Part shown: in pieces, positions 52,937-58,371 of the stretch
Position numbering within the stretch: position 1 is the first letter of the stretch
Layout of the letters: every line of letters starts with the position of its first letter
Virus record (IMG/VR): IMGVR_UViG_3300023184_000088
Coordinates: 1 to 64,000 of that record
Reading direction: 5' to 3' (one strand)
Origin: a virus
Length of the DNA: 64,000 bases
Notes under the pieces: generated by a model
What the model was told of the DNA's origin: nothing
Databases searched by the model: none
The model's input: the letters and a program-made list of their open reading frames with translations, nothing else
Program-made: the position numbers and the translations under genes

Positions 52937-53822
52937 TCTTGGCTAATTAGGTTGAGATTAAACCTATTATTGAGAATCTTTAAAAGGATTATTAGTTCCC
53001 TCTGTATCCACACCCTTTTGGGATGTAATCCTCAGTGACGATTGGTTAGACCAATCACTCCTCGAGTCGTAAATTACTCTCTTATTACTACACTCTCTTT
53101 AATCTTGCGAACTAATTAATCCTTGCGGGATTAGAGGTTTTTGGTAAGAATACACATCAACTTGCGGTCTTTGTGTGCTATGGACGGCCCATAACTAAGT
53201 AGTCACCTTGTCATCTACGACTGACAGACACTTTTGCTTTTTTCTGTTTAGTTTTTCACCATGTTGAAAATAGTAATTGTGTTGTGGATGTGTCGAAGAA
53301 GGGGTCTGTCGTAAGCTTCGCTATCTTTTGGACAACAAAATACTAACCTCCTCCGTGTAATGTCCCCATTACGAAATTTCAAGTGTAGTTCATATCAACA
53401 TCTTGGTAGATGTTTGATAGGGATAAAATCGACACCACTCGTTCTTTATCTTACCTTTCGGTTTTAACTCAACTCTTATTTTGGAACCCGCAATTACATA
53501 TTTGGAAATATGTTTCTTACTTGGTTCCTATGGGTTATTCTTATTGGTGTTCCCACCTCAACCGGACAATCCACATTGCCAAGTTAGTATTCCATTTCCC
53601 TACGAAGTTATCCTCGGTACTACAGGACTACTAATATCCCACTTGCTTACTCGAGTTCGGTTTCCCAAACCCCAAAATTAGTAACACAACTAATTTCGGT
53701 TTATCCTGCTTTCGCAGTTTATTTAAAGATGATAAGCCACCTATTATCTTTGATACAACACCGAAGTGTTATAATGGATAATCTAAAATTTCTAAGAACG
53801 TCTTTAAGGTTTCCCTTAATTG
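52911..53822 (-). ncRNA. Large (about 910 nt) structured noncoding RNA, GOLLD/ROOL-like candidate
   Basis: No credible coding frame fills this segment, which is less AT-rich than its surroundings. It runs from a host-type promoter at 53828-53857 to a strong terminator. Read on the minus strand, many hairpins end in standard stable tetraloops: AACAC-UUCG-GUGUU (53757-53770), CUGC-GAAA-GCAG (53706-53717) and GUAAUG-GGGA-CAUUAC (53357-53372). Other stems lie at 53117-53133 and 53040-53056. Size, lack of coding and position beside tRNAs recall the GOLLD and ROOL phage RNAs. I cannot confirm membership; it may be a new class. Confidence 0.7.
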
Positions 53823-53857: not shown

Positions 53858-53890
53858 GCACTTTATAAAACTTTTTTTTAAAAAATAAAA

Positions 53891-53978
53891 TGTGTTGTGT
53901 AAGCTCTACCACTGCAGCTAAACCTTGGTCACCAGGATTACGGTTGTTGGAATCGAACCAACGACTCTACACGACACA
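53891..53978 (-). ncRNA. Permuted tRNA-like element B
   Basis: On the minus strand the order is: outer stem TGTGTCGTGTA, a T-arm with stem GTTGG/CCAAC and loop TTCGATT, an acceptor-like stem AACC/GGTT closed by a 17-nt loop, a D-arm (GCTGCAGTGGTAGAGC), then TACACAACACA pairing back to the start. The T-arm and D-arm are canonical on this strand only but in reverse order. The outer stem takes the place of the anticodon stem (TACAC/GTGTA fits positions 27-31/39-43), so ends lie where the anticodon loop should be. A T-rich tract follows. Confidence 0.65.
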
Positions 53979-53985
53979 TTTATAG

Positions 53986-54076
53986 TGGTATCAACGGGAC
54001 TCGAACCTGTGACACAGGGTTTTTCAGAACCCTTGCTCTACCAAGGGAAATAAATCTCCCACTGAGCTATAATACC
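53986..54076 (-). tRNA. tRNA-Phe(GAA)-like with D-loop insertion
   Basis: This gene is 91 nt. The 7-bp acceptor GGTATTA/TGATACC, D-stem GCTC/GAGC, anticodon stem AGGGT/ACCCT and T-arm with loop TTCGAGT are in normal order. Two features are odd. The D-loop holds about 17 extra nt that can form a GGGA/TCCC hairpin. The anticodon loop TCTGAAAA has 8 nt; with U33 as its third base the anticodon is GAA (Phe). One T-stem mismatch (A-C) is present. CCA is not encoded. It sits between the two permuted elements. Confidence 0.65.
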
Positions 54077-54087
54077 ATATAAAATAA

Positions 54088-54162
54088 TGTGGGTGTATGC
54101 TCTACCATCTGAGCTACGGATTTGAAACCGGAGGGATTTGAAACCTCGACACAACACCCACA
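54088..54162 (-). ncRNA. Permuted tRNA-like element A
   Basis: On the minus strand: outer stem TGTGGGTGT, T-arm (GAGG, loop TTTCAAATC, CCTC), a capped acceptor-like hairpin CGG...CCG of 14 nt, a canonical D-arm GCTCAGATGGTAGAGC, then ACACCCACA closing a perfect 9-bp outer stem. The order T-arm, acceptor, D-arm is a circular permutation of a tRNA with the ends in the anticodon region. No anticodon loop can be read. It is the first element after the promoter at 54193-54224. Confidence 0.65.
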
Positions 54163-54192
54163 CCATTAATTCAATGAACTTATTTTCTTCTA

Positions 54193-54584: not shown

Positions 54585-54598
54585 ATAATTTAAATTTG

Positions 54599-54701
54599 TA
54601 GTCAGGACAGGAATCGAACCTGTAAATATTGACTTGAACAATTGCTCGAAGTCTCAACGTCTACCACGCCAGGGACATCCCTAACCTTCCTCCACCTGAC
54701 T
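54599..54701 (-). tRNA. Atypical tRNA-like gene, isotype unassigned
   Basis: This gene is 103 nt. The 7-bp acceptor AGTCAGG/CCTGACT, a discriminator A and a perfect T-arm (ACAGG, loop TTCGATT, CCTGT) support a tRNA. The rest is unusual: after TGGAGGAA comes a hairpin AGGG-ATGT-CCCT, then GTGGTAGACG resembling a class II D-arm end, then a long hairpin with stem GACTT/AAGTC capped by an AATT tetraloop where an anticodon arm is expected. I cannot read an anticodon. It could be a class II tRNA with insertions or a decoy. Confidence 0.55.
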
Positions 54702-57345: not shown

Positions 57346-58371
57346 CTACAATTTTTTAAATTCCGGTTTGATTAGATTCCATATAATTTCGGAGTAATCT
57401 TTACGGTCAAACATCCTAAATAAAATACCTGATAAATGTTTAGGTTGTTGTGATACCCACTCAGCATACTCTTTTCTATCTGTGATGGGTTCTTTGTCGT
57501 TATATTTACCATACATTTTACCATCAAATTTTTTACCAGCATCTTCAGATATTTGGAAATAAAAATACCTTAATTCTTTTACATAATTTTTAATTTTGGT
57601 GTAAAATTCATCCGGAACATCTTTTAATAATTCCATTACATCTTCACCATTTTTTAAATATTCCCATATACCTGTTGTAGACACATTGGTCATAATTTTA
57701 TGAAGACGAAGATACTCAACACCTTTTACTTTAACTCTATCTCCATTTGAGAACTTCACCACGAACCCCTCTTGGTCGTTTTTAACCATTTCTTTTAATT
57801 GTTGGTAGTCCTTGATACCATCGTATTTTTTAACCACATCAAAACCCCACTCATCCCAATCTGACATGTCATAATCTTTACCCCAATTATCGAATGCTCC
57901 CAATAGGACCAGTTTCTCTTCACCTTTATAATCCAAAACAATTCTGTTTTCCGGGTAGATAATCTCAAAACAAAATGTCATATGTCTAAACATTATGTCT
58001 GTATTGTATTTCTTTAAGAGTTCTCTCGCTTTGATTGCTTGGTCTGATGTAAATGAACCACGAGTGGCAACCACCCATTGACCTTCATACCAAAATACGA
58101 TACCTAATGAACCATCCATTTTTTCATAAACTTCAAAGGTTTCAGTAGGAGTATATTTTCCTTCCTCAATATTAAAGAATTTTTTAAATGGTGTTGCAAC
58201 AATATCTCCTTTGTCGTCAGTAACTAAACCTCTTGTACTAAGAGTCACCTCATCCCACAGGTTCTCGTACTGAACTTTTTCAGAGTAGTTCCATATGGTT
58301 AATGGGAGTGTTGGATGTACTTGTTTGTAAAGTAATCCGTCTTCGTAATATTTGTTTAGTTTTTCTAACAT
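57346..58371 (-). CDS. rnlA: T4 Rnl1-like RNA ligase
   Basis: This protein has 341 residues. Nucleotidyltransferase motif I EKMDGSL gives the adenylated Lys84. Also visible are ATRGSF, FCFEIIYPENRIVLDY (motif III), EGFVVKF (motif IV) and RVKVKG (motif V). RGLVTDDKGDIVATPFKKFFN before motif I is typical of the Rnl1 family. In T4 this enzyme reseals tRNA cut in the anticodon loop by host anticodon nuclease. It is the last gene of the repair operon and lies 4 kb from the aberrant tRNA cluster. Confidence 0.88.
   Translation of the reverse strand: MLEKLNKYYEDGLLYKQVHPTLPLTIWNYSEKVQYENLWDEVTLSTRGLVTDDKGDIVATPFKKFFNIEEGKYTPTETFEVYEKMDGSLGIVFWYEGQWVVATRGSFTSDQAIKARELLKKYNTDIMFRHMTFCFEIIYPENRIVLDYKGEEKLVLLGAFDNWGKDYDMSDWDEWGFDVVKKYDGIKDYQQLKEMVKNDQEGFVVKFSNGDRVKVKGVEYLRLHKIMTNVSTTGIWEYLKNGEDVMELLKDVPDEFYTKIKNYVKELRYFYFQISEDAGKKFDGKMYGKYNDKEPITDRKEYAEWVSQQPKHLSGILFRMFDRKDYSEIIWNLIKPEFKKL

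Follow-up and report, generated by a model that had tools for sequence, protein, structure and literature searches.

Candidate tRNA-chassis RNAs in phages: a tRNA-like gene without an anticodon arm as a probable member of a family with exchangeable inserts

Background

Viral tRNA-like bodies that serve non-decoding purposes are known from the tRNA-like structures of plant viruses and the tRNA-miRNA RNAs of gammaherpesviruses, and Y RNAs are known tRNA mimics. In tmRNA (ssrA; RF00023) a tRNA-like domain, consisting of an acceptor and a T-arm, is combined with another RNA domain that replaces the anticodon arm, and the molecule is charged through an anticodon-independent synthetase. YrlA (RF02553) is a phage and bacterial RNA that mimics tRNA without decoding; its arms are permuted, its acceptor is closed by a loop, and it works with Ro60/Rsr. 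In the engineered tRNA scaffold (Ponchon and Dardel; cf. PMC3753655) the anticodon arm gives way to an RNA of interest, which is shielded and processed by means of the surrounding tRNA body. GOLLD and ROOL are large, ornate phage RNAs found near tRNA islands, and GOLLD has been reported as an RNA nanocage, proposed to hold phage tRNAs (PMC12286853).

Here we describe a non-decoding tRNA-like gene on the minus strand at 54599-54701 of a 64,000-nucleotide stretch of virus DNA (the window), which belongs to a 76.6-kb virus record that also carries a tmRNA. The gene lacks an anticodon arm and holds a D-loop hairpin and a second hairpin where that arm would be expected. We read it as a member of a large phage RNA family, for which we propose the name tRNA-chassis, in which a body probably derived from tRNA-Leu carries exchangeable cargo RNAs; we put the probability of this reading at about 0.72. 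No matching description was found in Rfam 15 or in the open-access papers searched, and within this scope the family is previously undescribed.

Like tmRNA, these RNAs have an acceptor and T-arm with other RNA in place of the anticodon arm, and they may likewise be charged by a synthetase that ignores the anticodon. Unlike tmRNA, they have U3-A70 instead of G3-U70 and retain a real D-arm with G18G19. In the Leu-like chassis, the inserts that replace the anticodon and variable arms range from 13 to 119 nt and are unrelated between copies, and at a median of 58 nt they are too short for the tmRNA ring. The chassis is present in many copies per genome, and the phages carry a separate tmRNA. Two YrlA-like RNAs lie beside the gene studied here, but the gene itself gave no YrlA match in Rfam, its arms are in the normal order and its acceptor is open. 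In contrast to the engineered scaffold, the chassis is natural, multi-copy and tRNA-Leu-like, with hundreds of cargos exchanged between phages. With tRNA-Leu it shares the D-arm GGCGGAATTGGTAGACGC, A73, A15-U48, G18G19 and A20a, but it is without the anticodon arm and the class II variable arm, and its acceptor occurs in no ordinary tRNA of these phages. The plant-virus and gammaherpesvirus RNAs differ in that the chassis is found in DNA phages, as free-standing gene cassettes with an open-ended cargo repertoire. GOLLD and ROOL are unrelated to it in sequence and size.

Results and discussion

Structure of the tRNA-like gene

Read on the minus strand, the 5' part of the gene is AGTCAGG TG GAGGAA GGTTAGGGATGTCCCTGGC GTGGTAGACG TTGA, and the 3' part consists of the hairpin GACTT-C-GAGC-AATT-GTTC-AAGTC (54631-54653) followed by AATATTT ACAGGTTCGATTCCTGT CCTGACT A. 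A previous reading of the letters (the sequence-only reading) had described the acceptor and T-arm as perfect, and indeed the 5' acceptor strand AGTCAGG (54695-54701) pairs at 7/7 positions with CCTGACT (54600-54606), while the T-stem of ACAGG TTCGATT CCTGT (54607-54623; T-loop TTCGATT) pairs at 5/5. U8 and G9 are located at 54693-54694. They are followed by a D-arm region (GAGGAA...GTGGTAGACGT, 54657-54692) which, on sequence and family comparison, is tRNA-Leu-like, with A14-A15, G18G19 and A20a. Its stem, GAG/CGT, is weaker than the family consensus GCG/CGC. The extra hairpin noted earlier in the D region was recovered as a predicted 7-bp stem with loop ATGT (GTTAGGG ATGT CCCTGGC, 54668-54685). 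Similar D-loop hairpins are present in three other loci (L149, L223 and L075), and in a fourth (L161) paired positions have changed on both sides relative to this gene.

The region at 54624-54656, which ends with U48 (54624), stands in the place of the anticodon and variable arms and contains no canonical anticodon arm. The hairpin with the AATT loop, also proposed in the sequence-only reading, is present in the minimum free energy fold, with z = -3.1 against dinucleotide shuffles. The discriminator A73 and an encoded C74 follow the acceptor (54598-54599). The gene thus has U8, A15 with U48, the D-loop GG and A73, the tertiary contacts and discriminator of the chassis family, and it shows the features by which that family is defined, AGTCAGG/CCTGACT, A73, C74, the T-arm and a non-canonical insert. 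The alanine identity pair G3-U70 is absent, as AGTCAGG/CCTGACT gives U3-A70.

ARAGORN did not call the gene as a tRNA, and against the Rfam tRNA model (RF00005) it scored 28.9 bits, with the cut-off at 29. A class II cloverleaf with a readable anticodon and U33, which would have spoken against a non-decoding gene, was sought with both programs and none was found; neither was a 5-bp anticodon stem with a 7-nt loop and U33. The exact 23-mer of the cargo hairpin was found in no other IMG/VR contig, and by this 23-mer the insert has no orthologue. Since this hairpin was seen nowhere else, the cargo reading for this copy rests on the family. With its private, small hairpin and a D-stem below consensus, this particular copy could be degenerate.

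A family with a common body

A first sample of 80 related virus loci was chosen through a neighbouring protein, irrespective of RNA content, and further loci came from two IMG/VR pattern scans with at least 120 matches each. The resulting collection comprises at least 332 distinct cassettes in related IMG/VR contigs. As a paired acceptor and T-arm was the condition for entering this set, those two parts are conserved by construction, and less biased evidence comes from reciprocity tests and the tertiary pair. The common body consists of the acceptor AGTCAGG/CCTGACT, a tRNA-Leu-like D-arm, the T-arm, A73 and an encoded C74. The interiors fall into 236 insert clusters, 190 of them singletons. 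The comparison of homologous loci called for by the sequence-only reading gave the same body with differing interiors.

Of the 225 non-canonical cassettes whose D-arm is Leu-like, 168 have the same acceptor as the gene studied here. Within the 80 protein-fetched loci, CCTGACT or a close variant was found in about 80 non-canonical elements (70 exact) and in 0 of 77 canonical tRNAs. The two halves of the body predict each other: for 143 of 162 5' halves the fitting T-arm and acceptor lie no more than 220 nt away (126 exactly), and for 238 of 251 3' halves a 5' acceptor was present within 170 nt. Among chassis selected on the T-arm and 3' acceptor only, U8 was found in 221/230 and the D-loop GG in 215/230. 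A73 is present in 293/332 cassettes and A at nucleotide 20a in 172/207 Leu-like chassis.

Positions 15 and 48 form the Levitt pair of real tRNAs. Over all cassettes, A15 is accompanied by U48 in 217 of 244 cases and G15 by C48 in 9 of 13 (Fisher p = 1.5e-8 for C48 with G15 compared with A15). Base 48 is the last base of the insert and its sole clearly conserved one (1.47 bits), which is what the A15-U48 contact predicts. This covariation bears on the least probable of the explanations considered, for which we see only a slight chance: that the cassettes are decaying tRNA pseudogenes left by recombination between tRNA arrays. Such arrays do recombine, many inserts are singletons and the D-stem at 54657-54692 is imperfect. 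Against decay, the acceptor and T-arm are perfect in hundreds of copies, these share one acceptor that the ordinary tRNAs of the same phages do not use, and the 15-48 pair covaries, which in itself disfavours the reading.

Three cassettes with the insert cargo-1, described below (L039, L075 and L081), have the T-loop TTAGA instead of TTCGA, together with changes in the D-loop GG (GATAG, GTTAG), possibly a coordinated change of the 19-56 contact. In another cassette type, found in L010, L013, L035, L051 and L086 (e.g. L010:12570-12662), an apparent second T-arm, GGTCGGTTCGAGTCCGAT, is located at the place of the D-arm; ARAGORN calls this type tRNA-Pro in L010, L012, L013 and L036.

Absence of decoding and of a split anticodon arm

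A canonical 5-bp stem with a 7-nt loop and U33 was found in 3 of 142 Leu-like members, against 0.85 +- 0.94 in shuffles, which is about what is expected by chance. It might be supposed that the cassettes are functional tRNAs with introns, or with a class II fold missed by the programs, and that splicing restores the anticodon arm. The insertions are at the tRNA intron position, the body is Leu-like, ARAGORN does call a few of the family, and a gene for a T4-type RNA ligase is located nearby (57346-58371). However, a split anticodon stem was detected in 33 of 163 cassettes, with 26.9 +- 4.6 expected by chance, the insert ends share no exon sequence save the last base, U48, and complete standalone RNAs are found among the inserts. 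The lack of conserved half-arms refutes splicing for most members, and we consider this reading very improbable. Group I and BHB-type introns were likewise rejected as candidates, as the split anticodon stem did not exceed chance.

The sequence-only reading had suggested selection for tRNA shape without decoding. Such selection is well supported by the sequence comparison: hundreds of independent cassettes from which the anticodon arm is gone have kept U8, G18G19, the 15-48 pair, the acceptor and the T-arm. What it had missed is that the insert is variable, structured and exchangeable, and that two inserts also occur as standalone RNAs.

The ends of the cassettes are of the tRNA type. C74 is encoded in 324/332 cassettes and 74/77 ordinary tRNAs of these phages, thus equally often, and U-1 is enriched (278/332 cassettes versus 49/77 ordinary tRNAs). 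These ends, and the location amid tRNAs and small genes, could fit bodies that act as punctuation, i.e. as processing signals at which long phage transcripts are cut while the interior drifts freely. We consider this quite improbable: a plain tRNA would suffice for the purpose, the uniformity of the acceptor goes far beyond what processing needs, and the inserts recur, covary and fold better than shuffles.

Different inserts at the same site in sister phages

In a sister phage (L010) the 250 nt upstream of the gene are identical to the window at 246 positions (98%). At the site itself this phage contains a different tRNA-like cassette, whose interior is 0.46 identical to that of the window, the same as shuffled sequence (0.46 +- 0.04). 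Different cassettes also occupy the site in two further phages, with interior identities of 0.45 (L011; shuffled 0.40) and 0.46 (L012; shuffled 0.46). The alignments of the sister phages break inside the shared acceptor and T-arm, which is where breakpoints should fall if the common body serves as the substrate of recombination. The insert has thus been exchanged at a single genomic site.

A 208-kb contig of a relative contained 16 pattern matches. High copy number, strong conservation of the tRNA body, very fast insert turnover and sites near phage tRNAs are all in line with a role as decoys, in which tRNA-like bodies would titrate tRNA-directed defence nucleases of the host or tRNA-binding proteins (RNase P, EF-Tu, modification enzymes); the insert would then only block decoding, or vary to escape recognition. 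We regard this as unlikely, although less so than the other alternatives. Anticodon nucleases require an anticodon, which is absent here, and the inserts do not look like filler, being structured, recurring between phages with compensatory changes and existing without any tRNA body.

Inserts as independent RNAs

Several inserts were also found within tRNA-like bodies that have other acceptors, for example that of L103 (TGTATCG/CGATACA in L170, TGTAGAG/CTCTACA in L185), and two inserts, cargo-1 and cargo-2, occur without any tRNA body, closed by a helix of their own. Cargo-1 (TGACACGCACG...TACCTCACTGTGCGTAGGTAAG) is embedded in a body in eight loci (L039, L040, L060, L074, L075, L081, L293 and L299) and is standalone in 21 distinct copies, several of which have their own closing helix or a terminator. 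This split differs from that of the script, 3 embedded and 26 standalone, as five copies with an altered D- or T-loop were reassigned by eye. In helix P4 of cargo-1, 6/6 pairs show changes on both sides and 95.5% of the alignment cells are paired; the covariation score is 0.403, whereas shuffles reach 0.130 +- 0.014 and slid structures do not exceed 0.117. A standalone copy is present in a Porphyromonas gingivalis phage (L331:1446-1571; BK068088.1; model score 74.4 bits), between a capsid gene and a head-tail gene, at a site annotated as 'hypothetical protein'. Here the pseudoknot is compensated on both strands, from ACGCAC/GTGCGT to ACGAGC/GCTCGT. The pseudoknot of cargo-1 is conserved, and this structured phage RNA, undescribed so far, was also seen in L290, L297, L301 and other loci. 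Among 198 Bacteroidota genomes no cargo-1 was found, a negative that carries no weight as evidence.

Cargo-2 (ACAAAGGGCAGGGCACAA...) was found in five embedded and four standalone copies. Each standalone copy has a different complementary closing helix, and in the embedded copies the tRNA body is in the place of that helix. Across 148 inserts, folding was better than that of mononucleotide shuffles (mean z -0.92 +- 0.09). No known RNA family reached threshold inside the inserts of 12 loci searched with Rfam 15, and a permissive Rfam 15 scan of 7 loci gave no family at the cargo sites. Antisense guides were considered as the nature of the cargos and appear less likely, as the recurring inserts show compensatory changes and not conserved linear sequence.

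Proposed mechanism and possible leucylation

The shared body, missing anticodon arm, hypervariable inserts and retained tertiary contacts are observed in the family, two inserts occur both alone and within the body, and inserts are exchanged at one site. To account for these observations, we propose that a tRNA-Leu-derived body lost its anticodon and variable arms and that a cargo RNA now sits in their place. The body would direct tRNA-like maturation (5' cleavage by RNase P, with trimming and CCA addition at the 3' end) and would fold as an L-shaped elbow that protects the RNA, with the cargo presented at the position of the anticodon arm. Homologous recombination in the common body sequence would then swap cargos between phages.

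In E. coli, leucylation of tRNA-Leu requires A73, A15-U48, G18G19 and A20a, and charging persists in variants from which the anticodon and variable arms have been removed (review, PMC9976931). Because E. coli LeuRS reads these elements and not the anticodon, the chassis may be leucylated by the LeuRS of the host. By these E. coli rules the leucine identity set is present in the gene studied here and in most family members, the hosts of which are probably Bacteroidota. Alternatively, the A15-U48/A20a set could be an unused remnant of a tRNA-Leu ancestor.

A wider proposal, which we make tentatively and give a little less than even odds, is that large phages, whose hosts are probably Bacteroidota, maintain an open library of small structured RNAs that recombine on a leucylatable tRNA-Leu body, and that these cargos act on hosts or rival phages. 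The universal chassis would then serve for processing and stability, and perhaps for aminoacylation or EF-Tu binding, as an RNA counterpart of a cassette system. If cargos can indeed be swapped on a natural tRNA scaffold, genomes would have a new route to producing and trading small RNAs. The prediction is that anticodon-less RNAs mature in the manner of tRNAs and may carry leucine. It would also account for odd 'tRNAs' in phage arrays that are annotated as tRNA-??? or with implausible anticodons. The acceptor, D-arm and T-arm together form a simple sequence handle by which phage RNAs with little else in common can be found in their hundreds; two or more of the cargos are structured RNAs missing from Rfam 15.

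Hosts

The 5' chassis was found in 7 MAG contigs among 84,980 genomes, four of which are labelled Flavobacterium, Sediminibacterium or Chitinophagaceae. We read these 7 as binned phage contigs. Together with the Porphyromonas phage the labels point to phages of Bacteroidota, and the same may hold for the window.

Neighbouring RNA elements

The sequence-only reading had counted four of four tRNA-like genes in this region without a normal anticodon loop. For the local cluster at 54 kb this is correct, but it does not extend to the phage as a whole: 14 of the other matches to the tRNA model, at 67-76.5 kb of the record, exceed 50 bits and have the appearance of ordinary tRNAs. A second probable chassis member of the same record is located at 67806-67896. 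Within the cluster two of the four genes are Y-RNA-like and not degenerate tRNAs, and a third is a separate non-decoding tRNA-like RNA; as two are Y-RNA-like and the others tRNA-like, the count holds for at least two different reasons.

The first Y-RNA-like element (54078-54173, minus strand) matches Rfam YrlA with 41 bits (E 1e-6), below the gathering score of 69 bits. Its arm order is permuted (T-arm, acceptor-like hairpin, D-arm) and it has no anticodon. The second (53875-53983, minus strand) matches YrlA with 26 bits (E 0.022), below the same 69-bit cut-off, and is 90-100% identical in eight related loci. Both resemble circularly permuted tRNAs with a terminal stem closing the whole; permuted tRNA genes were rejected as their identity on account of the Rfam YrlA match and the YrlA arm order. 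A Ro60 (TROVE) partner was detected as one partial match, in 1 of 16 related virus records.

The two YrlA-like RNAs flank the separate non-decoding tRNA-like RNA (53986-54076, minus strand) in this phage and in relatives. This RNA has a hairpin insert in the D-loop (GGGAGATTTATTTCCC in the window and in L010-L030) and an 8-nt 'anticodon' loop without U33, which is TCTGAAAA in the window and AACGAAAG or similar in relatives, varying around GAAA. It is 78-99% conserved in relatives, beside the YrlA-like elements and GOLLD. Its acceptor varies with pairing kept (GGTATTA/TGATACC, GACACTG/CGGTGTC).

The 3' domain of a GOLLD RNA (52949-53355, minus strand; Rfam GOLLD 321.8 bits) adjoins the cluster, at a distance of 1.2 kb from the gene at 54599-54701. 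Speculatively, GOLLD nanocages could interact with chassis RNAs. GOLLD is 68 to 96% identical between phages with nearly identical flanking genes, which suggests that it too is exchanged by recombination. In related virus contigs, a freshwater-1 RNA (RF02979; L064:3348-3409) lies within the array of tRNAs and cassettes of one such phage, and a group I intron match (L100:7609-8193, minus strand) is located directly beside a tmRNA gene.
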